Assembly (NCBI GenBank): GCA_003641745.1
Contig: QNAI01000018.1
Location: 1 to 34,568 of the forward strand
DNA: 34,568 nt
Direction of reading: 5' to 3'
Origin: Verrucomicrobiota bacterium
GTDB lineage: Bacteria; Verrucomicrobiota; Verrucomicrobiia; Opitutales; Opitutaceae
Position numbers and translations under genes: made by a program. The first letter of the stretch is position 1. Every line of letters begins with the position of its first letter. The notes beneath the pieces were generated by a model. It was given only the letters and a program-made list of their open reading frames with translations. It made no database searches and was not told the DNA's origin. Below, in pieces: positions 1,445 to 28,926 of the stretch.

Positions 1445-1494
1445 ACTCGGTTCCACCTTTACTCGCCCTTCACAAACCGGAATCATTGGTGCGA

Positions 1495-2787: not shown

Positions 2788-2796
2788 AATTGTCAC

Positions 2797-2975: not shown

Positions 2976-2980
2976 CGTAA

Positions 2981-3033: not shown

Positions 3034-3046
3034 GTCCACCGTCCAC

Positions 3047-3061
3047 GCCGGCGAAGCCGGC
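3047..3061. repeat. GCCGGC-GAA-GCCGGC mini-hairpin
   Basis: A perfect 6-bp stem with a 3-nt loop lies just after the REP-like element. The same motif with one mismatch occurs at 21005-21019 beside the second copy. A shared 12-mer CCGTCCACCGTC is at 3032-3043 and 21022-21033. These motifs therefore travel as a composite element whose parts are arranged differently at the two sites. Confidence 0.6.
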
Positions 3062-3073
3062 ACCCTCACCACC

Positions 3074-3628: not shown

Positions 3629-3688
3629 GTTACTTTTCACCATTTCCCGTACGAGAACCGAATCATTCGACACAGGAACGATCACCCA

Positions 3689-4693: not shown

Positions 4694-4711
4694 AAGGCTT
4701 CAATTCTGGTT

Positions 4712-5746
4712 ATGAAGAAAGAGATGAATCATCACTTTTCCCCTACGGAACATCACAGACACCTGATGTCAAAGACCGTGCCCTCATTGCGCTACGAGGG
4801 CGCTGACCCAAGGAAGTGGCAGCGCAAACTTCGGCGAAAACTTCGGCAATTGATCGGGGAGATGCCCAGTGACAGATGCCCTCTTCGACCCCGAAGCCTT
4901 TGGAAACGGGAGCATCCGCTGGGTTCGATTGAGAAGATCGTCTTCCGTGCTGAACCGTATGCCGATGTGCCCGCTTATGTCTGCCTGCCAAAGAACGTGG
5001 ATCCACCCTACACCTTCATGGTCTGCGTCCAAGGGCACTCGGGCGGAATGCACAATTCCATCGCGGTCCAGCGGGAGGATAATTCCAAACCGTTGAAGGT
5101 CGAAGGTGACCGTGATTTCGGGCTCGGATGCATGCGTCGCGGTATTGCCGCACTGTGTATTGAACAGCGATCGTTCGGCGAACGACGCGAGCAGAAACAG
5201 GCGCATATCTCGGACCAGGGGTGTCACGACGCCACCATGCACGCCCTGCTGTTGGGACGGACATTGATCGGGGAGCGTGTGTACGATGTTGACCGGGGAA
5301 TTGACTACCTCGCCTCACGCGGCGATGCCGATATGAAAAGTATCGGGGTCATGGGCAACTCGGGCGGCGGCACCACCAGCGTATTCTCTGCCGCCCTGCT
5401 ACCACGAATTGCGTTTGCCATGCCCTCATGCTACTTCTGCACCTTTCGCGACTCGATAATGTCGATCTACCATTGCATGGACAACTACATCCCGGGGCTG
5501 TACAATTACGCGGAAATGGCCGACGTGATGGGGCTCTTTGCTCCGAAACCGGTCGTCCTCGTGGCTGGAAGAGAAGATGACATATTTCCCATCCGCGCCA
5601 CGCGCCGAGCGTTCAAGGATCTTCAGAAGATCTATGAATCGTTTGATGCCCGGAGCCGATGCCACCTCGTCGTCGGACAGGGTGGCCATCGTTTCTACGC
5701 CGACGATGCCTGGCCGGTGATGCTGAAGGAGATCGGGAGGATCTGA
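4712..5746 (+). CDS. Alpha/beta hydrolase (acetylxylan esterase/dienelactone hydrolase-like)
   Basis: The 344-residue protein has an alpha/beta-hydrolase core. The nucleophile elbow is GNSGGG with Ser217, the acid is likely Asp289 or Asp290 in GREDDIFPI, and the base is His326 in GQGGHRFY. No signal peptide is seen, so it is probably cytoplasmic. It begins 18 nt after the URO-D-like gene, which suggests co-expression. ATG 4712 is used; ATG 4724, four codons later and preceded by GAAAGAG, is an equally good start. The fold fits esterases that remove acyl groups from sugars, but the substrate is not determined. Aromatic and Cys-rich residues around 230-270 (YFCTFRDS) form a likely lid or pocket region. 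Confidence 0.85.
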   Translation: MKKEMNHHFSPTEHHRHLMSKTVPSLRYEGADPRKWQRKLRRKLRQLIGEMPSDRCPLRPRSLWKREHPLGSIEKIVFRAEPYADVPAYVCLPKNVDPPYTFMVCVQGHSGGMHNSIAVQREDNSKPLKVEGDRDFGLGCMRRGIAALCIEQRSFGERREQKQAHISDQGCHDATMHALLLGRTLIGERVYDVDRGIDYLASRGDADMKSIGVMGNSGGGTTSVFSAALLPRIAFAMPSCYFCTFRDSIMSIYHCMDNYIPGLYNYAEMADVMGLFAPKPVVLVAGREDDIFPIRATRRAFKDLQKIYESFDARSRCHLVVGQGGHRFYADDAWPVMLKEIGRI

Positions 5747-11291: not shown

Positions 11292-11939
11292 ATGAAATCT
11301 GTATTTTGTTCCGCCCTCGCGATCGCCCTGCCCGTCACGATGCTGGCCGGTGGCAGCACCGGTTTTGACGACCAGGAGATTGGGGGCGCACCGGCCGGCT
11401 GGACGGTGGCGATGACAGGCAAGGGCTCGCCGCAATGGACAGTGGAAAATGAGGCGAAGGCTCCAAGCGGGGACAAGGTGCTCAAGCAATCCGGAACCGC
11501 CTCCTATCCGCTTTGCGTGAAGGACGACACCTCGCTCACGGACGGCTTCGTGGAAGTGTATTTCAAACCGTTGACCGGGAAAAAGGACCAGGCCGCGGGG
11601 ATCGTCTGGCGTTACCGTGACCCGAACAATTACTACATCGTGCGCGCCAACGCCCTTGAGGACAACGTGGTCCTCTACAAGGTCGAAAAGGGCAAGCGTT
11701 CCTCGCTCAACATTGTCGGGCGGAAGGAGGGCTACGGGGTGGACGCCGAAGTGCCGAACGGCCAGTGGCAGGTGCTGCGGGTGGAAATCGCCGGCGACCT
11801 CTTCACTGTTTCTCTGGAGGGGAAGGAACTTTTCCAGGTGAAAGACCAGACCTTCGCAGGCGCGGGGAAAGTCGGGCTCTGGACAAAGGCGGACAGCGTG
11901 ACGCTGTTTGATGACTTCAGCTACGGGGCAAAAGATTGA
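11292..11939 (+). CDS. Secreted LamG/DUF1080-like beta-sandwich protein
   Basis: The 215-residue precursor has a signal peptide (MKSVFCSALAIALPVTMLAG) followed by one concanavalin-like beta-sandwich: GFDDQEIGGAPAGWT, then GIVWRYRDPNNYYIVRAN, GQWQVLRVEIAG, and terminal LFDDFSYG. This is the pattern of DUF1080/3-keto-disaccharide-hydrolase-like and LamG domains, which bind or cleave carbohydrates. No catalytic residues can be assigned. An upstream in-frame GTG (11271) exists, but the signal peptide fixes ATG 11292. Its stop overlaps the TTG start of the solute-binding lipoprotein by 4 nt, so it is the first gene of the ABC transporter operon. Confidence 0.78.
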   Translation: MKSVFCSALAIALPVTMLAGGSTGFDDQEIGGAPAGWTVAMTGKGSPQWTVENEAKAPSGDKVLKQSGTASYPLCVKDDTSLTDGFVEVYFKPLTGKKDQAAGIVWRYRDPNNYYIVRANALEDNVVLYKVEKGKRSSLNIVGRKEGYGVDAEVPNGQWQVLRVEIAGDLFTVSLEGKELFQVKDQTFAGAGKVGLWTKADSVTLFDDFSYGAKD

Positions 11940-12973
11940 AGGGCGGCCGGTGGCTGCTCTGTCTCGGGCTGATCGCAGCCCTCGGCGGATGCAAAGGGAA
12001 TTCACCCCGTGATGAGAAAGACGAGGTGGTCGTCTACACTTCGGTGGACGACATATTCGTCCGTCCGATCACGGAGCGATTTCAACGGGAGACCGGCATT
12101 GAGGTCCGGCTGGTCACCGACACCGAGGAGACCAAGAGCACCGGTCTGTTGAACCGGCTCATCGCCGAGAAAGATCGGGCTCAGGCCGATGTCTTCTGGA
12201 GCGGCGATCCGGTGCGGGCGGCCATCCTGAAGGCCCGCGGGATTTCCGCCGCCTACCACTCGCCCAATGCAGAGGGGATGCCAGTCGACTTCAACGACCC
12301 CGAGGGTCACTGGCAGGCGCTTTCGGCCCGTGCCCGCGTCATCATCTACAATAAGAACCTTGTGCCTCCGGGTGAGGAACCGCGGACGCTCGACGCCTTT
12401 CTGGATTCGCGGTGGAAGGGGAAAGCATGCCTCGCAAACCCGCTATTCGGGACCTCTTCGATGCATGCCGCGGCCCTCTTCAGCGTGTGGGGCGATGATG
12501 CGGCCAAAGCATTCTTCGAGGAAATGACTGCCAACGAAGTCACCATGCTCTCATCAAACGGAGAGGTGAAGCGAGGGGTAGCGGCCGGTGATTTTGCATT
12601 CGGTCTCACGGATACCGACGACGCGAGCGTGGCGATCAATGAGGGCAAACCGGTGGGTGTGCTTTATCCGGACCGTGAAGGCATGGGAACCCTGATCATC
12701 CCGAATGCGGCGGTCCTGATCGATGGTGGACCCAATCCCGGGAACGGCAGGCGATTCATCGATTTCCTCCTGACCTCCGAGGTCGAGGAGGCATTGGCAA
12801 GAAGTGAGGCCGCCCAGATGCCGCTCCGGCCCGGCGTGCCCGTTCCTCCCGCCTTCGTGCGATTGCAGGACATCCGCGCCATGCAGGTTGATTACGGTGA
12901 CCTGGCTCCGCGCCTCGATGAACTTTCCCGTGGGTATCTGAAAGAGTGGGCGGCCAAGAACGCCGACCGATGA
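11936..12973 (+). CDS. ABC transporter solute-binding lipoprotein, ferric-iron/AfuA-FbpA-like
   Basis: The 345-residue protein is a family 1 solute-binding protein. It has a lipoprotein signal with lipobox LGGC (Cys19), then EVVVYTSVDD, an 'FWSGDPVRAAIL' segment and a GILIP-type hinge region (GTLIIPNAAVLI). Related proteins bind Fe(III), but thiamine, phosphonate or polyamine binders share this fold. The YY iron-ligand pair of FbpA was not found, so metal specificity is uncertain. Translation probably starts at the TTG at 11936 that overlaps the preceding TGA, implying translational coupling; the next gene overlaps by ATGA. It is anchored to a membrane, most likely facing the periplasm. Confidence 0.82.
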   Translation: MKGGRWLLCLGLIAALGGCKGNSPRDEKDEVVVYTSVDDIFVRPITERFQRETGIEVRLVTDTEETKSTGLLNRLIAEKDRAQADVFWSGDPVRAAILKARGISAAYHSPNAEGMPVDFNDPEGHWQALSARARVIIYNKNLVPPGEEPRTLDAFLDSRWKGKACLANPLFGTSSMHAAALFSVWGDDAAKAFFEEMTANEVTMLSSNGEVKRGVAAGDFAFGLTDTDDASVAINEGKPVGVLYPDREGMGTLIIPNAAVLIDGGPNPGNGRRFIDFLLTSEVEEALARSEAAQMPLRPGVPVPPAFVRLQDIRAMQVDYGDLAPRLDELSRGYLKEWAAKNADR

Positions 12974-14538
12974 TTTCACCTCTGATCCTCGAACGACCGG
13001 GGAGGTGGCGTGGAGTGGGGATTGCCGCCGGCCTTCTTCTGGCTGCCGCGCCGGTGATCGTAGCGGCATTGGCACTCTCGGGTGGAGGCGAGTCGGCCCA
13101 GTCAAGTGGATTCCTCGATACGGGCTTCGGACCGGCGGTGCTCCGAAGCCTGAAGGTCGCCGCCGGCGTCTGGTTCGTGGCGGTGTTGGTCGGTTTACCG
13201 GCGGGGTTGTTTCCGGCCCTGTATTCCATCCCGTTGCGGCGGACCCTGCTGGGGCTGGTGGCGCTTCCCCTGCTGGTACCGTCCTTTCTTTGGGCCGTGG
13301 GCCTTTCGATGCTTCGCATGGCGCTGGGACTTCCGGCGGACAACATCCTGGGTGGTTTTTCCGGAACGGTGCTGGCATTTTCCGCAACCGCCGTGCCCTT
13401 GGTCACTTTGGCGACCTATGTGGCGGGACGCCGTATCACACAGGGCGAAGCGGATGCGGCACGACTGGCGGGAGGCGAGCGGCACCTGATTTTCTGCGTG
13501 GCGCGATCCGTTTTCCCGATGGCGGTGGTGGCCGGGCTATTGGGGAGCATCCTAACGCTTTCGGATCCCGGACCGGGACAGATCCTCAGATTTGGCGGCG
13601 CAGCCTCCCACATCCTCGTGAGCTTCGCGGCCCAATACGATTTCGCACTGGCCACGCGACAGAGTCTTTCCCTGGCGGTGATCGTTCTGGTACTCGCCGT
13701 CCCGGCAGCCATCTGGCTCTCGCCGCGCATGGCATCCGGCCTGTTGGCGCGACAGACGAAGTCGGTGGCTCTCTCCGAGAGATCGACTCTGGCTTGGATC
13801 GGTCTGGTGCTGTTGGCGGGAATCATCGGGATGACCTCGGTACTCCCGCTGGCCGGGCTGCTTCAGCCGCTCGGTAATGGTGTTCCGGTGGTACGAGCGT
13901 TGGTAACGGTGGGGCGCACCCTGGGAGACACGGTGCTTCTCGCGTCGATTGCAGGAGTTGTGGGAACGGGATTGGGCTTTTCCCTGGCCCTTTGCGCGGG
14001 CCGTCGGCGGCGATGGCAGATTGTTCTTCTCGGAGGGGCGCTCGTTCTCTTTGCGCTGCCTCCCGCTCTGTCCAGCCTGGGCGCCATCCACCTGGCAGCG
14101 ATCGCTCCGCCCACCCTGGATTCCTTGACCCGCGGTCAATTCACAGTGGGCACAATCGAGGCATTGCGCCTGTTTCCCCTCGGCGCGGTATTGGCCATGC
14201 GGGCATTTGGGACTGGTTCCCCTGATTGGACGGCCGCGGCAGCGGTGCACGGAGTACCGCTGGGAAAGTATTTCTTGAGGGTTCTGGTCCCCTGGGTGTT
14301 ACCGACTGCAGGGATCACGGTTGTATTGATCGCGTTGCTGGCCACCGCGGATGTCACAACCGCCCTCCTGCTCAGTCCGCCCGGGGGAGGATCGCTGCCA
14401 CTCGCCATCTTTACCATCATGGCGAATGCACCCGAAGCGCTGGTCGGCGCCCTCTGCCTGCTCTATGTGGGCGGCGCCGGGATTCTGTTGGCCGGGGTCA
14501 GCGGGATTCTCAGACGACAGGAAAGGAAAAGACCATGA
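12970..14538 (+). CDS. Fused ABC transporter permease (two BPD domains, FbpB-like)
   Basis: The 522-residue protein has about twelve transmembrane segments and two permease halves, as in iron(III) FbpB or ThiP-type transporters. Each half has an EAA-like coupling loop: EADAARLAGGERHLIF near residue 160 and AAAAVHGVPLGKYFL near 420. It works with the solute-binding lipoprotein and the ATPase on either side. ATG 12970 overlaps the upstream stop in an ATGA; the frame is open upstream to 12946 but those codons overlap the preceding gene. The last four nucleotides overlap the ATPase start. Confidence 0.88.
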   Translation: MISPLILERPGRWRGVGIAAGLLLAAAPVIVAALALSGGGESAQSSGFLDTGFGPAVLRSLKVAAGVWFVAVLVGLPAGLFPALYSIPLRRTLLGLVALPLLVPSFLWAVGLSMLRMALGLPADNILGGFSGTVLAFSATAVPLVTLATYVAGRRITQGEADAARLAGGERHLIFCVARSVFPMAVVAGLLGSILTLSDPGPGQILRFGGAASHILVSFAAQYDFALATRQSLSLAVIVLVLAVPAAIWLSPRMASGLLARQTKSVALSERSTLAWIGLVLLAGIIGMTSVLPLAGLLQPLGNGVPVVRALVTVGRTLGDTVLLASIAGVVGTGLGFSLALCAGRRRRWQIVLLGGALVLFALPPALSSLGAIHLAAIAPPTLDSLTRGQFTVGTIEALRLFPLGAVLAMRAFGTGSPDWTAAAAVHGVPLGKYFLRVLVPWVLPTAGITVVLIALLATADVTTALLLSPPGGGSLPLAIFTIMANAPEALVGALCLLYVGGAGILLAGVSGILRRQERKRP

Positions 14539-15284
14539 CGACGCTGATCCAAGTCAACCAGGTGGCCAAGGATTTCGGCACGGTACCTGTGTTCCAGGAT
14601 ATCTCCTTCGAAGTGTGCCCGGGGCGCCACCTGGCTCTGCTGGGACCATCGGGATGTGGAAAGTCGACCCTGCTCCGACTCGTCACCGGACTCGACGTCC
14701 CGAGTGCGGGCGATATCCGGATTGAAGGGGAACTCGCCTCCTCGGCGAAAAAGATCCTGATCGAACCCCACGAAAGAAAGATCGGCATGGTCTTTCAGGA
14801 ATTGGCTCTCTGGCCCAATCTCAGCGCGCTGGATAATGTGCTGCTGGGGATGGCGCGGACGAGCCAACCCCACCGCGAGCGCCGGACGACGGCGAGGGAA
14901 GTCCTGAAGATCTGTCGGCTGGACGGTCTTGAGAACCGCGTGCCGGCCGCACTTTCCGTCGGACAGCAGCAACGTGTTGCGCTGGCCCGTGCCCTCGCCC
15001 TGCGACCGAAGCTTCTCCTCCTCGATGAACCTTTCACCGGGCTCGACCTCACCTTGAAGGCGGAGATCTTCAAGGAAATCCGGCGCCTGGCCAGGGACTT
15101 CGATCTGACCCTCCTGCTTGTGACTCACGATCCGCTCGAAGCACGGGGTCTGACCTCGGAAGCTCTCGTTCTCGAAAAGGGCGGATGCTGCGAGCAGGGC
15201 AACCTCGAAGACCTGCTGGCGAACCCGGTCTCCGCGACCTTGCGCGCCTTCGTGGCGAACCTCTCCAGGGCACCGGAGACCTGA
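14535..15284 (+). CDS. ABC transporter ATP-binding protein (iron/thiamine/spermidine-type)
   Basis: The 249-residue ATPase has Walker A GPSGCGKST (residues 37-45), Q-loop VFQEL near residue 87, signature LSVGQQQR (140-147), Walker B LLLLDEP (160-166) and a switch His in LLVTHD. It is shorter than FbpC or PotA proteins (about 350 residues) because it lacks the C-terminal TOBE-type regulatory domain. The frame is open back to 14226 but that part overlaps the permease; ATG 14535 follows a GGAAAGG ribosome binding site and overlaps the permease stop in ATGA. It energises the transporter encoded by the two preceding genes. Confidence 0.93.
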   Translation: MTTLIQVNQVAKDFGTVPVFQDISFEVCPGRHLALLGPSGCGKSTLLRLVTGLDVPSAGDIRIEGELASSAKKILIEPHERKIGMVFQELALWPNLSALDNVLLGMARTSQPHRERRTTAREVLKICRLDGLENRVPAALSVGQQQRVALARALALRPKLLLLDEPFTGLDLTLKAEIFKEIRRLARDFDLTLLLVTHDPLEARGLTSEALVLEKGGCCEQGNLEDLLANPVSATLRAFVANLSRAPET

Positions 15285-15411: not shown

Positions 15412-17037
15412 ATGCCCCCTGAAGTCGTCGAAGCCCTCAGCCGCACGAACTTCACCTGGATCGATACGGTCATCATCGTTGCCTATCTGGGTGCCTCCCT
15501 TTTCATCGGGCTGGCCGTCAAGAAATACGTCCGCAATATGACGACCTATATCGGCGCCGGCCGCAAGGTCGGCGTCTGGCTTGGTGTCGCCACGATGCTC
15601 GGGACGGAGATGGGCCTCATCACCGTCATGTACAGCGCCCAGAAAGGCTTCACCGGAGGCTTCGCCGCCTTCCATATCGCCCTTATCGCCGGCGTCGTTA
15701 CTCTCCTTATCGGCCTGTCCGGATTTATCGTCGTCCCTTTGCGCCGCTTAAGGGTCCTCACCATACCCGAATTCTACGAGCTCCGTTTTGACAGAAAAAC
15801 GCGCGTCCTCGGCGGGATCATGCTCGCCTTCGGTGGCATCCTCAACATGGGCCTCTTCCTCAAGGTCGGCTCCATTTTCATCGTCGGTGTTACCGGGCTC
15901 TCCAATACCGGCTGGGCCCTCCCCTCCGTCATGGTCGGGCTCCTTGTTCTCGTCCTCGTATATACAACCCTGGGCGGCATGATCTCCGTCATCCTCACCG
16001 ATTACGTCCAGTTCGTCGTCCTCTCAGTCGGTCTCCTCGTCGCCACCTCACTCGCCATCGTCCAGCTCGGCTGGTCGGATATCTTCGCCACCGTCCAGGA
16101 AGTCATGGGTGAGACCGGTTTCAATCCCGTCGCCAAAGGTTCCGGCTTTGGCTGGTCCTATATGGTGTGGATGATCATCACGGCCGGACTCGTCAGCTGC
16201 GCGGTATGGCCCACCTCCGTCGCCCGCGCCCTCGCAATGGAATCGACCGCAGCGGTCAAACGGCAGTATTGCTGGTCTTCTGTCTCGTTCACCATCCGCT
16301 TTCTCATTCCGGTTTTCTGGGGTATCTGCGCGCTCGTGTATATCCTCCACGCCCCTGAAGGAGCTGACCTCAGGGTCCTCTTCTTTCCTGAAGGTCCAAC
16401 CGGCGGTGGCGGATTTGACAATCTATACGCCATGCCCGTCTTCATGGCCCGTCTCATGCCCACGGTCCTGCTCGGCATCATCACTGCGGGTATGATCGCC
16501 GCTTTTATGTCGACCCACGACAGCTACTTCCTGTGCTGGTCCTCAGTCATCACCCAGGACATCATCGCACCGCTCAGAAAAAAACCACTCTCCGGTGCCG
16601 GACGCGTCCGGCTCACCCGCATCATCATCATCATCATCGGCGCCTACGTTCTCTACTGGGGCCTCTTCTACCAGGGCAAAGACGATATCTGGGACTATAT
16701 GGCTGTAAGCGGAGCCATCTTTTTCACCGGTGCCCTCGCAGTCCTGATCGGCGGGCTCTATTGGAAACGTGCCAGTTCCACCGGTGCCTTCGCCGCTCTC
16801 CTCACCGGCCTCACCGCTCTTTTCGGCCTCGGCCCCGTCCAGCAGCTCGTCGGCCTTCAATACCAATCGCCCGGTTCCGATGAGTGGATTCAACGCCTTA
16901 CCGGGGCCCAGGTCGGCCTCATCTCCGTCGCCCTCGCCTTCGCTGTTCTCATCACCCTTTCCCTCCTCTTTCCCGATCGCACCCCACGAACCGGCAGAGT
17001 GAGGCCTTCCGGACTGTACCCTGAATACAGCAAATGA
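15412..17037 (+). CDS. Sodium/solute symporter (SSS family)
   Basis: This 541-residue protein has about 13 transmembrane segments and SSS-family features: TIPEFYELRF after the third helix, GMISVILTDYVQF in the middle and ISAF-type GMIAAFMSTHDSYF around residue 360. It should import a sugar, polyol, amino acid or organic acid with Na+. The codon style differs from adjoining genes: Val is mostly GTC and Leu mostly CTC/CTT with few CTG, giving a pyrimidine-rich coding strand. The start ATG 15412 lacks a clear Shine-Dalgarno sequence; the 127-nt spacer upstream shows no obvious promoter. The stop overlaps a 50-residue membrane protein gene by ATGA. Confidence 0.93.
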   Translation: MPPEVVEALSRTNFTWIDTVIIVAYLGASLFIGLAVKKYVRNMTTYIGAGRKVGVWLGVATMLGTEMGLITVMYSAQKGFTGGFAAFHIALIAGVVTLLIGLSGFIVVPLRRLRVLTIPEFYELRFDRKTRVLGGIMLAFGGILNMGLFLKVGSIFIVGVTGLSNTGWALPSVMVGLLVLVLVYTTLGGMISVILTDYVQFVVLSVGLLVATSLAIVQLGWSDIFATVQEVMGETGFNPVAKGSGFGWSYMVWMIITAGLVSCAVWPTSVARALAMESTAAVKRQYCWSSVSFTIRFLIPVFWGICALVYILHAPEGADLRVLFFPEGPTGGGGFDNLYAMPVFMARLMPTVLLGIITAGMIAAFMSTHDSYFLCWSSVITQDIIAPLRKKPLSGAGRVRLTRIIIIIIGAYVLYWGLFYQGKDDIWDYMAVSGAIFFTGALAVLIGGLYWKRASSTGAFAALLTGLTALFGLGPVQQLVGLQYQSPGSDEWIQRLTGAQVGLISVALAFAVLITLSLLFPDRTPRTGRVRPSGLYPEYSK

Positions 17038-17186
17038 CCTGGATCCTATTCTGGAAAATCGTTCTCGTTTTCGCCCTCACCGTCTTCGCAGTGATGGCTG
17101 TATTCGTGACCGTCCTGGGCGCTCGCGATATCAAAAAACTCCTCACCGCCCTTCGCCATCTCGAGGACGACTCCGCCGAGGATTAA
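17034..17186 (+). CDS. Small single-pass membrane protein coupled to the symporter
   Basis: This 50-residue ORF starts at an ATG that overlaps the symporter stop (ATGA). It begins MTWILFWKIVLVFALTVFAV, continues with a hydrophobic helix to about residue 29, then a cytoplasmic-looking tail (RDIKKLLTALRHLEDD) with a charged amphipathic end. Its base composition matches the symporter. Four-nt overlap, strong membrane character and short length suggest an accessory subunit of the symporter, analogous to other small transporter partners; this is inference. No known family was recognised. Confidence 0.75.
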   Translation: MTWILFWKIVLVFALTVFAVMAVFVTVLGARDIKKLLTALRHLEDDSAED

Positions 17187-17310
17187 AATCCGCCTCGATC
17201 GATGTTGCCGGTTACTCTTCCTTCCGACCTGGAAGACATGGTTGACAGCGATTGGGCCGGCCTTGCTCGAAACCTGATTGCATCTCGGCATCACCGCTCT
17301 CAACTTCCGG

Positions 17311-18435
17311 ATGGGTTCCAGCCACCATGACGACCCCGTTGACCAACACCGCAACCTGTATCAACCGTTCACCCAAACCGATGTGAGCCGAGAAATCGCC
17401 CTGGCCAATATCCAACTTGAACCCTGTGCGCGCTGGGCGCGGACGGAATACAGTCTTGATTATCACCCCGAATTCCTGGCGACGGCCACCGGACTCACCC
17501 CGGATGATGATCACCTGCAATCCGCGGGACATGATGCTCTCGGTTTGGATTTCATCTGGCGGACGCACAATGGAATGATCGACTGGGCGGCGTCCGGACG
17601 GACGACTGACATGGGGCATGCCGCCTATGCAGTCGATGCATCTGACCAGCGTCAGGACCGGGCTTCGCCGTTTGCTTCTGAGGAAGAGGTCTGGGCATAT
17701 GATGCGGTGGAGGAATATGGCCTGCCCGATTTTTCCGAACAGGTGGCTTCCTACCAGGAATTGCAAGACGAGGCATTGAGGAAATTCCCCGGCCAATTGA
17801 CCACGGGCGGCTACTACCGAACGATCATTTCCGGAGCCATCGAGGCATTCGGATGGGATATGCTGCTGATGGGTGCTTCCGATCCGGACCGGTTTGAAAA
17901 GGTGCTTGATTCCTTTTTTCGCAGGACCCTCTTCTTCATGCGGGCCTGGGCGGAAACCACCACCGAGGTGATCATCCAGCATGACGATTTTGTCTGGGCT
18001 TCGGGACCATTTCTGGATCCCGAGTACTACCGCCGGGTCATAATCCCCCGCTACGCCGTACTATGGAAGCCGCTGCACGCCGCCGGCAAGAAGGTCCTGT
18101 TCTGCTCGGACGGCGACTTCACCCCATTCGTCGACAATCTGGTCGAGGCCGGGGCCGACGGCTTCATATTCGAACCGTGCATGGATTTCGGTCGCATGGT
18201 CGAGCGTTACGGACGGACCCACTGCCTGGCCGGCAGTTATGTTGATTGCCGGGATCTGGCCGCCGGGAAATGGGAGGTGGTTTCCAATGCCATCGACCGC
18301 ACATTCGAGGCTCTGAAAGGCGCCCGGGGTGCCCTGTTCGCGGTCGGCAACCACCTTGCCCCGAATATCCCGGATGAAATTCTCATGCGGTATTTTGATT
18401 CCGTGCGGAATGGCCTCAGACGACCGTCCAGCTAG
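17311..18435 (+). CDS. URO-D-like protein, copy 4
   Basis: The 374-residue product has URO-D-family barrel features: VIIQHDDFVWASGP, then VLFCSDGDF with Cys265-Ser-Asp267-Gly268 in the position where the other paralogues have His-Ser-Asp-Gly, and an AVGNHLAP C-terminal strand instead of the methyltransferase Cys motif. The N-terminal 70 residues diverge, with an unusual His-rich start (MGSSHHDDPVDQH). ATG 17311 is chosen; a TTG at 17278 is in frame upstream. The gene follows the symporter/small-protein pair by 124 nt and precedes a Gfo/Idh/MocA gene. Catalytic chemistry is unknown; HemE activity is unlikely because key motifs are missing. Confidence 0.8.
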   Translation: MGSSHHDDPVDQHRNLYQPFTQTDVSREIALANIQLEPCARWARTEYSLDYHPEFLATATGLTPDDDHLQSAGHDALGLDFIWRTHNGMIDWAASGRTTDMGHAAYAVDASDQRQDRASPFASEEEVWAYDAVEEYGLPDFSEQVASYQELQDEALRKFPGQLTTGGYYRTIISGAIEAFGWDMLLMGASDPDRFEKVLDSFFRRTLFFMRAWAETTTEVIIQHDDFVWASGPFLDPEYYRRVIIPRYAVLWKPLHAAGKKVLFCSDGDFTPFVDNLVEAGADGFIFEPCMDFGRMVERYGRTHCLAGSYVDCRDLAAGKWEVVSNAIDRTFEALKGARGALFAVGNHLAPNIPDEILMRYFDSVRNGLRRPSS

Positions 18436-18474
18436 TGGATTTGTTCCAGGAATTTTTTCAAGGTCGAAGACGGC

Positions 18475-18498
18475 GCGCCAGGGACGTCGCGCCCTACC
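18475..18498 (-). repeat. Dispersed TAGGGC hairpin-type repeat (inverted copy)
   Basis: This is an exact 24-nt reverse complement of 7632-7655. It lies in the spacer between copy 4 of the URO-D-like genes and the second Gfo/Idh/MocA gene, ten nucleotides before a decayed REP-like element. Confidence 0.75.
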
Positions 18499-18508
18499 CT
18501 GTGACCAC

Positions 18509-18561
18509 GGGGTCATTCCTTGCATTCGTGCGTGCCAATTCAGGAGTGAAGGTCTGATTCC
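18509..18561. repeat. REP-like palindrome, decayed inverted copy
   Basis: Read on the plus strand, this 53-nt segment aligns without gaps to the reverse complement of 2981-3033, with about 38 of 53 positions identical by eye. It keeps GGGGTCATT at the left and a TGCCAATTCAGGA core. Internal pairing is largely lost, so it looks like an old, degenerating copy. Confidence 0.6.
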
Positions 18562-18592
18562 TTTGGGACACCTTTCGCAACCCACCTTCAAT

Positions 18593-19588
18593 ATGAAAAA
18601 AACCAGGACGGTCATCATCGGCGCCGGGGGCATCGCCCGGCATCATCTCAAAGGAATTCTCCAGACGCCCCGCCGGGCTTCGGTCGTTGCTCTGGTCGAG
18701 CCTCACAACGGTTCGGCTGAAGCTGCCATTGGCATGGTTGTGGAAGCCGGGAGAAAAGCACCCATCCGAACGGCATCCTGGAAGGAATTTCTCAAGTCGG
18801 ATGTGAAGGCCGACACAGCCCTGATCTGCACACCTCACAACCTGCACTATCAGAACGTGCGCGACGCTCTGAAAGCCGGGCTCGATGTACTCGTCGAGAA
18901 GCCCATGGTCATCACCACCGGCGATGCGCTCCGGCTCAAGAGGCTGGCCGCCAGGAGCACGGGAATCCTCTCGATCGCGTTCAACGGCAGCCATTCGCCC
19001 GGAATCAGAAAAGCCCGCGAACTGATCGCGGCCGGTCGAATTGGCGAGATCATCGCGGTAAATGCGTATATTCACCAGCGCTGGATCAAGGGATTCAGTG
19101 ATTCCTGGCGCCTGAAACCTGAGATATCGGGCGGGGGATTCCTTTTCGATACCGGTTCCCACATGGTCAATACGACCCTCGACCTGGTCGATGACGATGT
19201 GCGGGAAATGTTGGTCCGCTGGAATCACCACGGCGCCCCGGTCGAACTCAATGCCGCCATCGCCGGTTCCACCAAGGGCGGTATCCTCTTCACCATGCTG
19301 GGTGTGGGCGAGAATATTCAATGCAAGTCCCAGATCACTGTATTCGGAACCCGGGGACAGATTCAAACCTGTGCCTGGGGAAAGTTCTTGCGGATGAAGA
19401 CGAACGAAAGAAACGACTTCAAGGACGTGAAGCTGAAGCTCGGTGTGCCGGTCTGGGACACGTTTCTTCAGACCCGGGACGGCAAATTGGACAACCCCTG
19501 TCCCGTGGACAAGGGCGTTCGGTTCGCCCGTTTTATGGACCTCGCCCGCAAGAGCGCCGAATCCGGCGAGGTTGTGCGCGCACGATGA
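18593..19588 (+). CDS. Gfo/Idh/MocA family oxidoreductase, second copy
   Basis: This 331-residue protein has the Rossmann motif VIIGAGGIARHH at the N-terminus, LICTPHNLHY, and the catalytic LVEKPMV motif, followed by the family's C-terminal alpha/beta domain (GGGFLFDTGSHMV). It is predicted to be a NAD(P)-dependent dehydrogenase of a sugar or cyclitol. It is of normal family length and lacks the cysteine insertion of the 1495-2787 paralogue. The frame is open upstream to 18329 but that portion overlaps the URO-D-like gene and the repeats; ATG 18593 begins the Rossmann strand. It is followed by a ceramidase-like gene 99 nt downstream. Confidence 0.9.
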   Translation: MKKTRTVIIGAGGIARHHLKGILQTPRRASVVALVEPHNGSAEAAIGMVVEAGRKAPIRTASWKEFLKSDVKADTALICTPHNLHYQNVRDALKAGLDVLVEKPMVITTGDALRLKRLAARSTGILSIAFNGSHSPGIRKARELIAAGRIGEIIAVNAYIHQRWIKGFSDSWRLKPEISGGGFLFDTGSHMVNTTLDLVDDDVREMLVRWNHHGAPVELNAAIAGSTKGGILFTMLGVGENIQCKSQITVFGTRGQIQTCAWGKFLRMKTNERNDFKDVKLKLGVPVWDTFLQTRDGKLDNPCPVDKGVRFARFMDLARKSAESGEVVRAR

Positions 19589-19608
19589 GGCACGCCCCTG
19601 CAGGAACC
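19589..19608 (+). repeat. Short dispersed repeat (inverted copy at 31197-31216)
   Basis: The 20 nt directly after the Gfo/Idh stop contain GGCACGCCCCTGC. The reverse complement occurs at 31197-31216 with one mismatch. There it adjoins the TAGGGC/GCGGAC composite repeat. Confidence 0.6.
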
Positions 19609-19687
19609 CATCAGCAAACGCTCGACAAGCAACTGTTCGCTCCCAAGAAAATCGCATCGCGTAACCGCAACTACCGATCCATTCACC

Positions 19688-21001
19688 ATGAAGCAAACAC
19701 CGCAACCTTACCTGATCGGCGTGGCCAACGTCGATGTCACCCCTCCGGCCGGATCCTCCCTGGCCGGTTTCGCCGCACGCATCGAACCATCAAACGACGT
19801 CTACCTGCCCCTTCGCTGCGTCATCACGGCCATCACGGATAGAGCCCGATCTAGCACGGTCCTTATCGTTTCGATCGAATGGCTGGGGTTCTACGACAAC
19901 ACGGATCATGTCCGCCGCCTGATTTCAACCGCCACCGGCATCCCAACCGACCATATCCTACTCTGCGGAACACATACCCACTGCGGTCCGCCCATGCGAA
20001 AGAAGATCGACGAAGACCGGCACGGCAGCATCGATCTCGAGTTCATTGACCGGGTGTTCGGCGACATCGCCCGGGCGTCGGCTGAGGCGGTCGCATCGCA
20101 GAAACCGACCGCAGTCAGAGCCGTTTCGGGATGGTGCGGATTCGCCCACTCCAGAAGGAAACCGGACGGAGAAGGAGGCATCGAGTGGATGCCGACCCTC
20201 GATGCGCCCCATGATCACACCGTCCCCGTCATCATTTTTGAAGACGATAAGGGAACTCCGATTCATGTCCTGTTCAGCTATGCATGCCACCCGACCTCAA
20301 GCGGGCCCATTCTCCAGATCGGCGGGGATTACCCGGGATTCGCGGCCAGAAAGATCGAGGAAACATTCAATTGTTCGTCCGCCTTCCTCCTGGGATGTGC
20401 CGGTGACCAGAAGCCGTATATCCCGGACCCCGGGCGGCCCGCGTTCCCCATGTATCCGATTGAGGCCATTCGCGGGCTCGGTGAACAACTCGCGGCGAGC
20501 GTTGCGAACGCCATTCGATTCGGAAACAGCGTACCGGTGACCGGTCCGTTGACCGTGCTCAGCCGGAAGCTGATCCTCCGAAACGAGGTCATGCCACGCC
20601 AGGTCTATGAGTCATCACTCAAGGCCGAGCAGTTGTTTGAACAACGGTGGGCCAGGCACACTCTCGCCATCCTTGATCGCGATAAATCACCCGACCGTGA
20701 CCTTCCCTTCGAGATTCAGGCACTGCAATTCGGCCAGGACCTCCTTCTGGTGGCGTTGGCCGGCGAGATGAGCGCCGAATACGGGCTGCGCCTGGTCCGG
20801 GAACTCAGCCACCGATTCTCCTTTGTCTGGCCCATCGCCTACGCGAATGAAATTGTCGGCTACGTTCCGGTCGAGCGGCAGTATTCCGAAGGTGGATACG
20901 AGGTCCTGGTCAATATGCAATACCTCCTGAGGCCGGGCCCCCTGGAAAGGGACTCGGAAGAGAGGATATTCGACACGATCGGGGAGATTCTGGTCGACTG
21001 A
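19688..21001 (+). CDS. Neutral/alkaline ceramidase-like hydrolase, second copy
   Basis: This 437-residue protein is a paralogue of the gene at 59-1444. It has VANVDVTPPAGSSLAGF at the start, GTHTHCGPP with zinc-ligand candidates His96 and His98, a CHPTSSGP motif, LGCAGDQKP in place of the GALGDINP loop, and C-terminal NEIVGYVPVERQYSEGGYE, where conserved Tyr residues of the family occur. There is no signal peptide, so a cytoplasmic location is likely. It closes the plus-strand catabolic-looking run that starts with the symporter. Substrate unknown; the family name does not imply ceramide hydrolysis. Confidence 0.85.
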   Translation: MKQTPQPYLIGVANVDVTPPAGSSLAGFAARIEPSNDVYLPLRCVITAITDRARSSTVLIVSIEWLGFYDNTDHVRRLISTATGIPTDHILLCGTHTHCGPPMRKKIDEDRHGSIDLEFIDRVFGDIARASAEAVASQKPTAVRAVSGWCGFAHSRRKPDGEGGIEWMPTLDAPHDHTVPVIIFEDDKGTPIHVLFSYACHPTSSGPILQIGGDYPGFAARKIEETFNCSSAFLLGCAGDQKPYIPDPGRPAFPMYPIEAIRGLGEQLAASVANAIRFGNSVPVTGPLTVLSRKLILRNEVMPRQVYESSLKAEQLFEQRWARHTLAILDRDKSPDRDLPFEIQALQFGQDLLLVALAGEMSAEYGLRLVRELSHRFSFVWPIAYANEIVGYVPVERQYSEGGYEVLVNMQYLLRPGPLERDSEERIFDTIGEILVD

Positions 21002-22997: not shown

Positions 22998-25900
22998 TCA
23001 AGGCGCCAGATTCACGAGGTAAACTTCAATGATCGTCTCACCTTCCGCTCCATTCTCGCTTCGAGCCTGGGCGGTATAGGCACCAGGTTCGACCACCATG
23101 AGCACGACGCTGTCGCGACCCGTCGGATCGATCCTGAATGCCCCGGCCAGATCCTGGGCCCCGACCAGGTCCGCCTGGGCAAAGGCCGGATGAACCGGAT
23201 CCACCCCCAGGGGGACAGCCCAGTCGTCATTCGCGGCAAGCAGACGCCCGCTTGCATCATAAACGTGCAAAACAGGATCATCGATGGCATCACTCACGCC
23301 GAACTCGGTCAGGCCCGGGCCTATGGCCCTTACCAGAATCAATGCGTTATTCTCGCCACCGACAATGAACCCGCCCGTTGCGACACCAGAGCCGGATGAA
23401 ACCGGACCTCTCGAGGACAGATTCACCAATCGGTTACCCGATTGGGTCGAATCATCCGAGGCGTCGTAAATCTCCGCCAGAATAACACCCGGCACACCGT
23501 CCGTATCCGAAAGCCGGATCGTGTAGACGCCCGGTTCGAGATCGACCTGAATGGCCGAATCCATGCTGTCAGGTGACAGCGGAAAAGCACCCACCTCCAC
23601 GAAGACTTCGGTCAGTGCCCGGTCACCACCCCATCCGCTGTTCTCAGCCACCAGCCCCCCCTCTGAGTCGAGGATCTGAAGGCGGGGCAAACCGGCATGG
23701 TCGTCGATGCCGAAAACGGCCAGGCCCGGCCCGATCGCTCGCACCAGGAGCCGCCTGGCCTCTGACCCCGTAACCGAAAAACCGGCAATGAAAACATCGC
23801 CCGCGCCCAGAAAAACTCGGGATGACAGGTTCAGAAATGCCGCGTCTGCACCGAGCGTGCTGACGTCCCAATCAATCGAAGCCACGTCCAGACTCGCGCC
23901 ACCAGCACCGTTGCCGGTCGAGCCTCCTGAATAATCCGAGCCCGAATCTCCCGACGAATCGGCATGGTCCGATGAAGTGTCCTCATCAGTCGCATCCAAG
24001 CTGCCGCCGCCCGCCGGACCCGTCCCTGCCGGGCCCGAGGCAACAGAACCGTAGAACTGAGCGACCGAACGGATGAATCCACTGGAGCTGCCCGTCGAGG
24101 TCGGCACCACGCCCTGGGCTCTGATGAAGTAGTATTCATCCGCCGGAAACGCCGTATCGACGTCAATCTCCCATCCACTACCCTGAGGAATCCGCTCACC
24201 CGTACCGAGCGCGGTCCAGTTCCGTCCGTCTCCCGAGCTCGCAAAGATTACAGAGGTAAGTTCCGGCGATGCCCCTTCCCGTATCCAAGTGATCCGGGTT
24301 CGACTGGAACTGACACTCATATTGTCGATCGCCGCGACATTGGTTCCCAATCGCGCCGTCAGGTACCTGGGATCATTTCCTACCTGGGTGAAATTTCCTG
24401 CGATGAAGGGTTGGCCATTCTCCAGCAGAATGACCGAGAAAACGTCGCCGTCGGTGTCGGCCTGGAAGGACGCGTCCAGCGATCCATCCGCATTCAAACG
24501 GGCAATGCCCGCCCGGGACTGGCCTCCGATTTCGGTGAACGAGCCGCCGACCAGAATCCGGCCGTCAGCTTGAAGCGCAACCGCATGCACCTCACCATTG
24601 GGTATCGGACTGAAACTCCCGTCCACCGTCCCATCCGGTCGAATACGAGCGAGGTAAGGTCGACTGGTCCCGCCGATCTCCGAAAATGCCCCGGCGACCA
24701 CCACCATTCCGTCGGGCTGTAACGCAAGGGCAACAACCGATCCGTCAGCCTCGGTTCCGTAGGAAGAATCTAGCGTACCATCAGAATTCAAGCGTGCCAT
24801 ACGGCGCTGGGTGAGTCCTCCAAGCTGGGTAAATTCGCCGCCGATCACGATCTTTCCATCCGGCTGGACAGCGACTGCCCTCACCGGTCCGTTTGCATCG
24901 GGATCGAACCCTTCATCGAGGGCTCCGGATCGCTCGAATCGCGCGATGCGATTCCGCACTTCACCTGCAATCAGCGAGAATCCGCCGGTCACCAGGACCC
25001 GGCCATCGGGTTGAAGGGCCAGGCCATCGACCGGTCGGTCCGGCCGCGGGTCGAAAGATGAATCGGGCGTCCCGTCAGCGTTCACTCGAGCCAGATTGCG
25101 AACCTGCGCACCGCTGACATCCGAAAAATTGCCGCCGAAGAAGATGTCGGACTGCGGGTTGAGGAAGTGAAAACTCCCACCCACCACGATCGTACCGTCG
25201 GCGCGGCCCAGGACGGCGAACACCGAGTTGTCGGCATTGGGGTTGAATCCTGTATCAAGCGAACCGTCTGCGTTCACACGGGCCAGGCGATTGCGGGGGG
25301 TGCGAAAGGACTGACCATTTGGCGCCAGACCGGTGAAGGATCCGCCGATCAGGATCCTGCCATCCGACTCGATGTCGATCGAGTTGACTGCGGAATTCGC
25401 ACTCGGATCGAAGTCATCCACGCTGCCGTCGGCATTGAACCGGGCGATATTATGACGGGCAATCAGATCGTCGGATCCGGATCCGGTTGCTGCGACCGAA
25501 AAGAAACTGCCGCCAATCACGTATTTGCCATCGACCTGTTCCTTGATCGCAAAAACGGGGCCTCCAGCCTGAGCCGAAAACTCCTCGTCGAGCGCTCCGG
25601 TTGAAAGAACCCGCGCCAGTCTGAAACGGGAAACGGCCGCACCGCCGTTGGGCGAGAGCAAATTGAACACCCCGCCGATCAGGATCTTGCCGTCCGCCTG
25701 CCAGAGAATGGCGTATACCTGGTCGTTGGGGCTCGGATCGAAACCCGCATCGACTGTGCCGTCGGTGTTGAGACGGGCGACCCGACTGCGTGCCGTCGGC
25801 GATGTGGCGCCGTTCGGACTCAGCGACGAAAAGTTTCCGCCAATCAGGATCTTGCCGTCACCCTGGACCGCAATCGTCCTCACTTGAGAGCTGACATTCG

Positions 25901-28892
25901 GGTCGAAGGCCGTGTCGAGGGAGCCGTCTGAACTCAACCGCGCCATCCGATTCCGCGCGAAGCCATTGATTGTCGTGAACAAGCCGCCGATCAGGATCCT
26001 GCCGTCGGCTTGCAGGGCGACAGCCGAAACCGAAGCATTGAGAATCGGTTTGAAGGTGGAGTCGAGGGAGCCGTCGGTATTGAACCGGGCCAGGTAGGGG
26101 CCGATCTGCAGGTTGCCATCAGTAAAGGAACCGGCGACGAGAAGACGACCATCGCTCTGCTCCACGATCGCACTGACCGCGCCGAGTAACTCGGATCCAT
26201 CCGTGGCGTTGGGTGCATCGTGGTAGGATCCATCCGGATCCAACCAGGCAACCAGGCGCCCCCGTTCGACATCGAAGGTGGTGTCCGGTCGTATCAGGAT
26301 GGCATGAACCGCCCCGTTGGTCTGGCTGGCGAAGGACCGGTCGACATTCCCATCCGAAAACATACGGGCGATATTGCGATTCTCGCTGCCCCCCAGGGAT
26401 TCAAAGGATCCTCCGATCAGAATACTTCCGTCGCCCTGTACAGCGAGGGAGGAAATCCGGCTGCCTGACGGATTGCTTGAGCGGACAATGTAATCGCTAT
26501 CCAACACGTCCTCCCCGGTCAACCGGACGACTTTCCCGACCACGGTTCCTTCATCACCGGTGAATGAAGTCATCCCGCTGAAACCGCCCGCGATAAGCAC
26601 CCCTCCGTCACCTTCCGGCAGGAATCCAAGAGCCGCATCGTTCGCACCCAGATTCAAGGTTGAATCGACGCCGCCGTCGCTGTTCAGGCGCGCGATACGT
26701 TCACGATACACGATTGTTTCCGCGCCGTTGGACTGGAAATACAAGAAATCGCCGCCTACCAGAATCCTTCCATCCGACATGATGTGGATGGCACGGACAC
26801 GACTGTCGGGATTCGGATCAAATCCGGGATCCACCTTCCCGTCAGAATTGAGGCGGGCGAGGAAATTCCGGGTTGTTGTCACTTCCCCACCATTGGGTTG
26901 AAAACTCGTGAATCGGCCGCCGAGCAGGATCTTGCCGTCGCTCTGCAGAGCGATTATTTCGATCGAACTGTTGGCGTTGGGATCGAAGTCAACATCCAGC
27001 GAGCCGTCTTCGTTGAGTCGAGCGATGAAGTTGCGGGTTGCAGTCGCCCCACCTCCGGATGGAATGACGAATGTGAAGAGTCCGCCGACCAGGAGTTTCC
27101 CGTCGGCCTGCAGGCTCAGCGCATTTACACCCGCACTGGTTCCGGCCGTGTAACCATCATCGACCGTTCCATCGGCATTCAGACGTGCCAGATAACTACG
27201 CTGAAAGAATGTTTCACCATCGTTGGGCGATAGATTGGTGAAATCCCCCCCGATCATCAGCTTCCCGTCAGGCAGGAGCACGACGGCTGCAACCGGCGCA
27301 TTGGGATTCGGACGAAATCCCGAATCAAGCGAACCGTCGGTATTGATTCGGGCGATTCCCCCGGCTACTGTTTCGTTGACTCTGGAGAATTCCCCGACGA
27401 TGACGATCCTGCCGTCGGATTGCCTGACAGCCGAAAGAATCCGACCATTCGTACTCGCAGTGAAGGTCTCATCCACGATCCCGTTCGAGTCGATTCTCGC
27501 CAGGTTTTGCCGGGTGACGCCGCCCATGCTGGAGAACAGGCCTGCAACAATGACCTTGCCATCGGCCTCCCTGACCAGGGTCGTGACCTCACCCCCGGGA
27601 TCCGATTCAAATGCGGAATCCAATGTTCCATCGGAATACAGCCGCGCCGCCCGATTGCGAATAGTCGAACCCGGCGACGACGCGGGTCTGAAACGGGTAA
27701 AGGCACCACCCGTAACGATCGATCCGTCGCTCTGCACCGCAATCGTGTAGACCGTGTAGTTGGGTGTGGGTGAAAAGGAGGTATCCAATGTTCCTTCAGG
27801 ATTCAAGCGCCCGAGATACCGCCGGGCCAAGGAGGTGAATGAGCCCGAGGGAAGGAAAGATGTAAAAGCTCCCCCCACCAGAATTCTGCCATCTTTCTGG
27901 ATTGCCAACGCACCCACGTTCGCGTTTGCGTTCGGTCTGAAATCCAAGTCGACCTGATCGTCAGCCCGGATGCGCGCGATCGAAATCCGATCATACACTG
28001 AACCTGAAACCCCTTGACGAATTGATCGAAAATCCCCGCCGATGACCAGCGATCCGTCCGCCTGGAACACCATGCACATCACCCGATTGTCGGCGACGAT
28101 GTTGAAGGAGGCATCGAGAGAGCCATCCACATTGAGGCGGGCGATCCGGCTGGTGTCAGTTACGTTTGATCCACCGTCCGGCTGCATCTGAGTGAATCCT
28201 CCCCCGACGATCAATCGACCGTCAGCCTGGAGACCGAGCGAATAGACGATATTGTTTGGATTTGGCGCAAAGCCGGAATCCACGCTGCCCCCGGCATTGA
28301 CACGCGCCAGATGATTTCGTGCGACGGGATTCGAGGTTCCGGCCGGCTGCAATTGGTTGAAGTCGCCCCCCAGCACGATCTTTCCATCCGACTGGACGAC
28401 GAGGGCATGGACCTGCGGCGTCTGCATGCCACCCAGGTTCGGGTCGAATCCCGTATCGAGTGTGCCGTCAACATTGAGGCGGGCAATTCCGTTCCTGACC
28501 ACGTGATTGCCCGTCCGATTGGGATCGACGGTGGTGAAACGTCCTCCAACCACGATTCTTCCGTCCGGCTGAAGTGCCAACGCGGTCACCGTGCCATCGA
28601 AATTTGGATCAAACCCGGAATCGAGAGTACCGTCGGGCAGGTAACGGGCAAGATTGTGCCGGCCGATCGCGGCACCGGCCTCGGGTCTGACCGAACTGAA
28701 AGCACCACCGATCAGAATCCTGCCGTCATCTTGAATCAGGACCACATAGGCCACACCGTCGAGGTTCGGGTTGAATCCGCCATGGTCGGATTGGGCGGCC
28801 GCCTGGTTGGGCGGAAGCGCCGCCAGCAGGAAGGCACCGATTGATGAAAGGACGCGGGCCTTTCGGAAAACCTTTGAGATGTTTGAAAACAT
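22998..28892 (-). CDS. Giant delta-60 repeat surface protein with tandem C-terminal domains
   Basis: This 1964-residue secreted protein begins with a signal peptide (after MFSNISKVFRKARVLSS, cut near NQAAAQ). Residues ~35-1510 are about 28 delta-60 repeats of the form ARLNxDGSLDxxF-x-PNxxxxV-x5-QxDGKIxIGGxF, which build a beta-propeller-like structure. Most units are ~60 residues because of a PNGG-type loop; the last five are ~50. One unit near residue 875 is decayed, and another near 1250 is partly duplicated. Next comes a ~100-residue segment that includes an ITWIREGASPELTSVIF strand, a Gly/Ser/Asp linker (~1615-1670), and two copies of a ~130-residue domain marked by LVRAIGPGL (about 1680-1810 and 1817-1963). 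No PEP-CTERM or other known sorting tail was seen. It follows a barrel-like gene by 34 nt and likely decorates the cell surface. Confidence 0.9.
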   Translation of the reverse strand: MFSNISKVFRKARVLSSIGAFLLAALPPNQAAAQSDHGGFNPNLDGVAYVVLIQDDGRILIGGAFSSVRPEAGAAIGRHNLARYLPDGTLDSGFDPNFDGTVTALALQPDGRIVVGGRFTTVDPNRTGNHVVRNGIARLNVDGTLDTGFDPNLGGMQTPQVHALVVQSDGKIVLGGDFNQLQPAGTSNPVARNHLARVNAGGSVDSGFAPNPNNIVYSLGLQADGRLIVGGGFTQMQPDGGSNVTDTSRIARLNVDGSLDASFNIVADNRVMCMVFQADGSLVIGGDFRSIRQGVSGSVYDRISIARIRADDQVDLDFRPNANANVGALAIQKDGRILVGGAFTSFLPSGSFTSLARRYLGRLNPEGTLDTSFSPTPNYTVYTIAVQSDGSIVTGGAFTRFRPASSPGSTIRNRAARLYSDGTLDSAFESDPGGEVTTLVREADGKVIVAGLFSSMGGVTRQNLARIDSNGIVDETFTASTNGRILSAVRQSDGRIVIVGEFSRVNETVAGGIARINTDGSLDSGFRPNPNAPVAAVVLLPDGKLMIGGDFTNLSPNDGETFFQRSYLARLNADGTVDDGYTAGTSAGVNALSLQADGKLLVGGLFTFVIPSGGGATATRNFIARLNEDGSLDVDFDPNANSSIEIIALQSDGKILLGGRFTSFQPNGGEVTTTRNFLARLNSDGKVDPGFDPNPDSRVRAIHIMSDGRILVGGDFLYFQSNGAETIVYRERIARLNSDGGVDSTLNLGANDAALGFLPEGDGGVLIAGGFSGMTSFTGDEGTVVGKVVRLTGEDVLDSDYIVRSSNPSGSRISSLAVQGDGSILIGGSFESLGGSENRNIARMFSDGNVDRSFASQTNGAVHAILIRPDTTFDVERGRLVAWLDPDGSYHDAPNATDGSELLGAVSAIVEQSDGRLLVAGSFTDGNLQIGPYLARFNTDGSLDSTFKPILNASVSAVALQADGRILIGGLFTTINGFARNRMARLSSDGSLDTAFDPNVSSQVRTIAVQGDGKILIGGNFSSLSPNGATSPTARSRVARLNTDGTVDAGFDPSPNDQVYAILWQADGKILIGGVFNLLSPNGGAAVSRFRLARVLSTGALDEEFSAQAGGPVFAIKEQVDGKYVIGGSFFSVAATGSGSDDLIARHNIARFNADGSVDDFDPSANSAVNSIDIESDGRILIGGSFTGLAPNGQSFRTPRNRLARVNADGSLDTGFNPNADNSVFAVLGRADGTIVVGGSFHFLNPQSDIFFGGNFSDVSGAQVRNLARVNADGTPDSSFDPRPDRPVDGLALQPDGRVLVTGGFSLIAGEVRNRIARFERSGALDEGFDPDANGPVRAVAVQPDGKIVIGGEFTQLGGLTQRRMARLNSDGTLDSSYGTEADGSVVALALQPDGMVVVAGAFSEIGGTSRPYLARIRPDGTVDGSFSPIPNGEVHAVALQADGRILVGGSFTEIGGQSRAGIARLNADGSLDASFQADTDGDVFSVILLENGQPFIAGNFTQVGNDPRYLTARLGTNVAAIDNMSVSSSRTRITWIREGASPELTSVIFASSGDGRNWTALGTGERIPQGSGWEIDVDTAFPADEYYFIRAQGVVPTSTGSSSGFIRSVAQFYGSVASGPAGTGPAGGGSLDATDEDTSSDHADSSGDSGSDYSGGSTGNGAGGASLDVASIDWDVSTLGADAAFLNLSSRVFLGAGDVFIAGFSVTGSEARRLLVRAIGPGLAVFGIDDHAGLPRLQILDSEGGLVAENSGWGGDRALTEVFVEVGAFPLSPDSMDSAIQVDLEPGVYTIRLSDTDGVPGVILAEIYDASDDSTQSGNRLVNLSSRGPVSSGSGVATGGFIVGGENNALILVRAIGPGLTEFGVSDAIDDPVLHVYDASGRLLAANDDWAVPLGVDPVHPAFAQADLVGAQDLAGAFRIDPTGRDSVVLMVVEPGAYTAQARSENGAEGETIIEVYLVNLAP

Positions 28893-28926
28893 GTTGATAT
28901 CCGGAAAATTGCTCGAAAAAGATCGC

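Follow-up and report, generated by a model that had tools for sequence, protein, structure and literature searches.

A 50-residue membrane protein encoded directly behind an SSS-family symporter in Verrucomicrobiota, its split and fused relatives, and its comparison with known small partners

YhdT-type proteins are the partner of PanF, DUF485 proteins (PF04341) of the YjcH type are presumably the partner of the acetate symporter ActP, and we take DUF4212 (PF13937) to be a small subunit of symporters of the sodium/solute symporter (SSS) family. A further model, NF045580, bears the name symporter small accessory protein (symport_access). In human, the single helix of MAP17 (PDZK1IP1) has an N-out/C-in topology. 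According to excerpts of PMC10803289, MAP17 lies against TM13 of SGLT2, is needed for transport and forms part of a fixed scaffold; excerpts of the same paper and of PMC10203128 report that it aids SGLT2 surface expression and thermal stability. Among the titles and abstracts listed on SSS small or accessory proteins, a set with subscription papers outside it, there is no report of the small protein described below, and the terms YjcH, DUF, YhdT, accessory and small subunit are all absent from the text of PMC7918813.

Here we describe a gene for a 50-residue membrane protein that overlaps the end of an SSS symporter gene in a stretch of 34,568 nucleotides, the whole of which is referred to as the window. 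The best overall explanation, to which we assign a probability of roughly 0.7, is that the product serves a single subfamily of SSS symporters as a dedicated, constitutively present small subunit, packed on the transporter scaffold and stabilizing its folding, insertion or activity.

The symporter and the small protein in the window

The symporter gene (15412..17037, forward strand; ATG at 15412, stop TGA at 17035–17037) encodes 541 residues. The sequence-only reading had called it a sodium/solute symporter, and the match to PF00474 agrees (E 5.1e-33, 115 bits against a cut-off of 22.8), placing the protein in the SSS family (TC 2.A.21); TIGR00813 is matched at E 1.6e-42, under that model's cut-off. 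An AlphaFold2 model of the symporter (pLDDT 91.0, pTM 0.91) has the LeuT-type fold, as judged by comparing the model with CHT1 (8j74: Z 38.2, rmsd 3.4, 485 aligned), SiaT (5nva: Z 35.5, rmsd 3.0, 461 aligned) and SGLT1 (7wmv: Z 33.9, rmsd 2.8, 499 aligned). Going by the helix list of the model, the symporter is predicted to have 13 membrane helices, TM0–TM12 in SGLT numbering, of which the last spans residues 498–519 and is followed by a low-confidence end. SSS proteins have an N-out topology, so that 13 helices would leave the C-terminus in the cytoplasm. Residues S367-T368, invariant across 60 aligned rows, may be the Na2-site Ser/Thr pair in TM8. The source genome (G000), a draft of 307 contigs that is 83% complete, has 10 SSS matches and a single copy of the small ORF.

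The small gene follows on the same strand (17034..17186; ATG at 17034, TAA at 17184–17186), and its start codon shares the four bases ATGA (17034..17037, forward strand) with the symporter stop, exactly where the overlap had been read. Its 50-codon product, MTWILFWKIVLVFALTVFAVMAVFVTVLGARDIKKLLTALRHLEDDSAED, likewise has the predicted shape: one hydrophobic stretch (residues 9–27; 17058..17114, forward strand) and then a charged tail (17115..17183, forward strand) with the motif G-x-x-[DE]-[IV]-x-x-L. Lysine and arginine are distributed unevenly around the helix, 53 before it vs 301 in the 15 residues after it over 85 family members, from which the helix is predicted to run N-out to C-in, with the tail on the cytoplasmic side.

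Outside the motif the family is loosely conserved, with a mean column identity of 27%. In an alignment of 69 rows the motif columns G29, D32, I33 and L36 hold their residue in 57, 56, 51 and 59 rows. Good conservation of this G-x-x-D-I-x-x-L motif at the cytoplasmic face would suit a protein whose charged tail is the functional part, recruiting an enzyme or signalling protein from the cytoplasm to the transporter, with the helix as an anchor. We consider such a role quite improbable: W7, just before the helix (69/69), and F/Y18, within it (68/69), are more conserved than the motif, and none of the neighbouring genes is conserved in a way that would make it a candidate partner.

The 50-residue protein alone has no NCBIfam match at E ≤ 1 and two Pfam matches, both far below cut-off, and when seven of the small proteins and two of the long symporters were scanned, the SSS domain was the sole Pfam or NCBIfam model to reach its cut-off. 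HemY_N, DUF3021, TorE and other models appeared for small relatives at E 0.003–0.5, all sub-cut-off, and were set aside as chance matches of membrane helices; nsp7 entries of the PDB, found with the family profile at E 0.36 and up, were also judged to be chance.

Conservation, start sites and coding constraint

Across 95 related genomes, the source genome included, the nine best symporter matches (E < 1e-85; the next match is at 2.9e-58) are each followed immediately by a small ORF, and a family profile was built from these nine small proteins, the window's and those of eight relatives. The profile was then applied to contigs other than its own sources that had been picked by symporter similarity alone (the best 80 of 349). 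It matches right behind the symporter and on the same strand in 79 of these 80 contigs (E 6.5e-14 to 0.026), the exception being L120, where the contig stops 104 bases past the symporter stop; no further profile match below E 5 occurs in the same 80 loci. The small gene is separate in 76 of the 79 relatives and fused to the symporter in three (L094, L118 and L123). Records of the subfamily carry labels of twelve phyla, some of which may be wrong where they belong to metagenome-assembled genomes (MAGs).

Searches without regard to the symporter point to the same linkage. When 288 genomes of the phylum were surveyed with the nine-protein profile, 12 matches had E ≤ 0.01: four of the profile's own rows, five more small ORFs (38–66% identical to that of the window), one long SSS protein matched in its tail, and two non-SSS genes. 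Nine of the 12 adjoin an upstream SSS symporter. When 69 small proteins were combined into a profile, it had 37 hits in the 95 relatives (E ≤ 0.01); nine are separate ORFs, themselves rows of that profile and all directly behind symporters of the subfamily, 26 lie within long ORFs of 659–859 residues and coincide with SSS matches, and two are elsewhere (genomes G093 and G029). At thirteen other SSS loci the best match to the small family was no better than 0.52. By comparison, each of the 17 other window proteins was found at E 1e-8 in at most eight of the best 80 of 349 loci, counts that are lower bounds because some loci are short, and, the symporter aside, the biggest cluster of neighbouring genes is found at 11 loci. 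What is conserved as a unit is therefore the symporter with its small gene, and the surrounding operon is not.

Among 67 split relatives with a one-helix small protein, 32 have a small-gene start no later than the final base of the symporter stop, and 29 of these 32 show a four-base or one-base overlap. A Shine-Dalgarno core (GGAG, GAGG or AGGA, 4–16 bases upstream of the start) precedes 27/32 overlapping starts, against a background of 9% at shifted positions for this set, and 20/35 non-overlapping ones. The ATG of the window's small ORF has no such core at 4–16 bases upstream, which makes reinitiation after the symporter stop the likely route at this start; judging by the four-base overlap, translation of the two genes in the window would be coupled.

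Coding constraint was measured in relatives, the window copy being without a near enough one, on pairs picked by symporter divergence alone (44 pairs, 13 of them independent). The pooled pN/pS of the 13 independent close pairs is 0.35 (177.6 changes over 469.5 synonymous sites and 196.4 over 1495.5 non-synonymous sites; Fisher p 1.6e-29), and 12 of the 13 lie below 1; the pair above 1, L133/L134, has four changes. A dN/dS table over all 876 pairs has a median of 0.65 and many values above 1; as its deep, GC-rich pairs appear to be saturated, it was not used. L096 and L122, with broken frames, were left out of the symporter set. The loci L133 and L134 both come from a single Gemmatimonadetes MAG (SP138) and are near-identical in symporter and small ORF, the latter differing at four sites.

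A short ORF with fused relatives might be a chance reading frame, or a fragment of a fused gene split by a sequencing error. The split state in 76 of 79 relatives (from the best 80 of 349), the coding constraint in relatives and the Shine-Dalgarno cores that precede 27/32 overlapping starts together refute this explanation, and we leave it next to no probability. The 50-residue ORF is very probably a real gene for a transporter subunit. The sequence-only reading had taken the small protein for a partner of the symporter, staking this on retention of a small ORF at this position in related genomes and on purifying selection on its codons; the former was found at 79 of 80 loci (best 80 of 349) and the latter in relatives (pooled pN/pS 0.35), and both support the proposed partnership.

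Directly upstream of the symporter, a binding-protein-dependent ABC importer is encoded on the forward strand (11936–15284: an SBP_bac protein, a 530-residue permease-like ORF and an ATPase); its proteins are rarely kept, in 0, 0 and 3 of the best 80 of 349 loci. Two clusters with the same families, a ceramidase-like protein (PF04734), Gfo/Idh/MocA and URO-D, flank the ABC transporter and the symporter (59–5746 and 17278–21001), the PF04734 match of the second cluster being below cut-off. Further on, a 1987-residue ORF on the reverse strand (22998–28961) has many repeats around QxDGKILIGG, reminiscent of delta-60 repeat proteins, and is followed by another ORF on that strand (28927–30057). A function derived from an operon of URO-D, Gfo/Idh/MocA, ceramidase-like and ABC transporter proteins was discarded, as these neighbours are rarely kept, and no substrate is proposed.

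Fused, long and two-helix forms

Long bacterial SSS proteins of 659–859 residues end in tails that resemble the small family in a homologous last helix and the G-x-x-D motif, but differ from the form in the window in being fused and in having one extra helix in front. Profile–profile comparison (hhalign) of the family helix with these tails gave Prob 97.1 and E 6.7e-11 over 49 columns. The tails of eight long SSS proteins (alignments A4 and A8) consist of two terminal helices, the last reading approximately W..WW..........VWF..GG.RDL..LF..LR; six of the eight long symporters L041–L048 match the family profile below 0.01 and two are missed, and the window protein as a single query finds long tails weakly (best E 0.00126). 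Two of the long ORFs, G052:C83 and G079:C1, measure 859 and 772 residues from stop to stop with the tail helix present, the others 659–739. In these comparisons the small protein is found also as the C-terminal tail of long symporters; by the neighbour counts given above, its distribution tracks the symporter and not the operon.

One extra hydrophobic helix precedes the family helix in the fused relatives L094, L118 and L123 and likewise in all eight long tails aligned. Direct fusion to a 13-helix symporter would invert the small helix, which accounts for the extra helix in the fusions; the pattern is consistent with a small helix that has to keep a given orientation. Nine of the 76 split small genes also encode a second, preceding helix, and their products reach 113–128 residues with longer upstream starts. 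These nine loci (L098, L099, L100, L102, L103, L106, L107, L115 and L131) form one Verrucomicrobiota clade of symporters with a support of 100, and their symporters extend 137–164 residues past the end of the tblastn match, apparently by an insertion before the last helix.

On a symporter tree of 94 rows built with a quick method, in which branches are long and the deep part is unsure, the fused state needs two changes: one for the deep long clade and one for the closer relatives L094, L118 and L123, which are surrounded by split ones. Two separate positions of fused forms on the tree suggest a fixed ratio of the two proteins, and so does the gene overlap; both argue against a regulator of the AcrZ or MgtS kind, which would bind the transporter conditionally and tune its activity, specificity or turnover. 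Such small proteins are described for other bacterial transporters in the excerpts available of a review (PMC10710835), and we regard this role as unlikely here. An insertion or assembly factor, required only while the symporter folds, would be in keeping with a gene directly behind that of the symporter and with the help that MAP17 reportedly gives to SGLT2 surface expression and thermal stability (PMC10803289 and PMC10203128, in excerpt); the fused forms, however, stay attached, and we give this explanation little credence.

Predicted placement and comparison with known small partners

A placement for the small helix is suggested by the fused forms. The model of L118 (pLDDT 92.1, pTM 0.91) has two helices after the core, 529–552 and 555–606, with pLDDT block means of 73–87 around the first and of 87–95, then 80 at the end, in the second. 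The structure alignments had 68 and 60 rows (the window and loci L062–L141), the fused tail being covered by three rows; free small proteins were left out because MAFFT put them inside the symporter and not on the fused tail. Compared with human SGLT1 and SGLT2, the L118 model is aligned to their last residues (671–672 in SGLT2) at model residue ~559, and compared with plant DUR3, to residues 645–649 at model residues 579–583. The alignment of the window symporter with SGLT1/2 ends at 550–578 in 12 of 15 rows (9 of 11 SGLT2 rows), before the last helix, and that with DUR3 at 559–563; the rows 7wmv, 9kkq and 7ynj reach chain residues 631–641 via low-confidence model residues 532–541. Going by these first and last aligned residues of predicted models, the fused helix 529–552 corresponds in position to TM13 of the SGLTs, and the helix of the small protein comes after it.

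For the dedicated subunit that we favour, the following course can be proposed. Given the overlap of the two genes, synthesis of the small protein would keep pace with that of the symporter, and the protein would insert as a single N-out/C-in helix with its charged tail at the cytoplasmic face. It would then pack against the exterior of the symporter and its 13 helices, at the face that in SGLTs holds TM13 and the binding site of MAP17, and act as a fixed element of the scaffold that stabilizes folding, insertion or activity. That the small protein binds the symporter, where it does so, and that it affects transport are inferences. In this subfamily the transporter appears to be encoded by two genes, of which the second has no Pfam or NCBIfam match above cut-off, and a symporter cloned alone may prove unstable or inactive.

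Among known small accessory families, NF045580 is similar in being short, in combining a single hydrophobic helix with an acidic tail, and in adjoining an SSS-like ORF, as judged by eye; it occurs in 21 of 96 genomes of the same phylum. Its gene lies upstream of the symporter in all six loci inspected (of 10), whereas the window gene lies downstream, and its motif is GxxDPW...NWN as against W7 and G-x-x-D-I-x-x-L in the window's family. Membership was rejected, with no match of the model to the 50-residue protein or in the source genome and an hhalign value of 0.26%. DUF4212 and DUF485, found in 13 and 15 of 57 related genomes, are also short membrane proteins but have two hydrophobic segments, and DUF4212 has a QQGSI...MNRLDR motif. 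Neither matches at E ≤ 1 (hhalign 1.2% for DUF4212, where the window protein has one helix, and 0.13% for DUF485), and both memberships were likewise rejected. The NSS small subunit PF16951 had no match in 96 genomes. Set apart from NF045580, DUF4212 and DUF485 by profile, the small family appears to be new and unnamed, but of a known kind, that of the SSS small accessory proteins.

The predicted topology is comparable to that of MAP17 on human SGLT2. Both are one helix beside an SLC5/SSS transporter, and the N-out/C-in orientation is indicated here by the K+R distribution given above; MAP17 differs in being human and in touching TM13, a helix that the window symporter lacks in the model. The 69-protein profile found no MAP17 among PDB chains at E ≤ 10, a search in which remote homology might go unnoticed given the shortness of the protein, and the structure matches listed for L118 and the window symporter include no separate MAP17 chain, which speaks neither for nor against a relation. 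The plant urea transporter DUR3 offers a second comparison, as the fused L118 model aligns into its last helix; unlike the small protein, the C-terminal helices of DUR3 are built into the transporter, and identity is 13–15%.

A broader reading, possible and put forward tentatively, makes the small protein a counterpart of MAP17 in bacteria: many SSS/SLC5 transporters would need a general extra N-out/C-in helix beside the scaffold, supplied as a free subunit, as a two-helix subunit that also brings the TM13-like helix, as the fused TM14–TM15 pair of long symporters, or as the built-in last helix of DUR3. With natural split, two-helix and fused forms at hand, the question of why some SLC5-type transporters need an extra helix, only partly answered for SGLT2–MAP17, becomes testable. 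If the broader reading is true, SGLT2–MAP17 gains a bacterial analogue with natural fusions for tests of structure and function.
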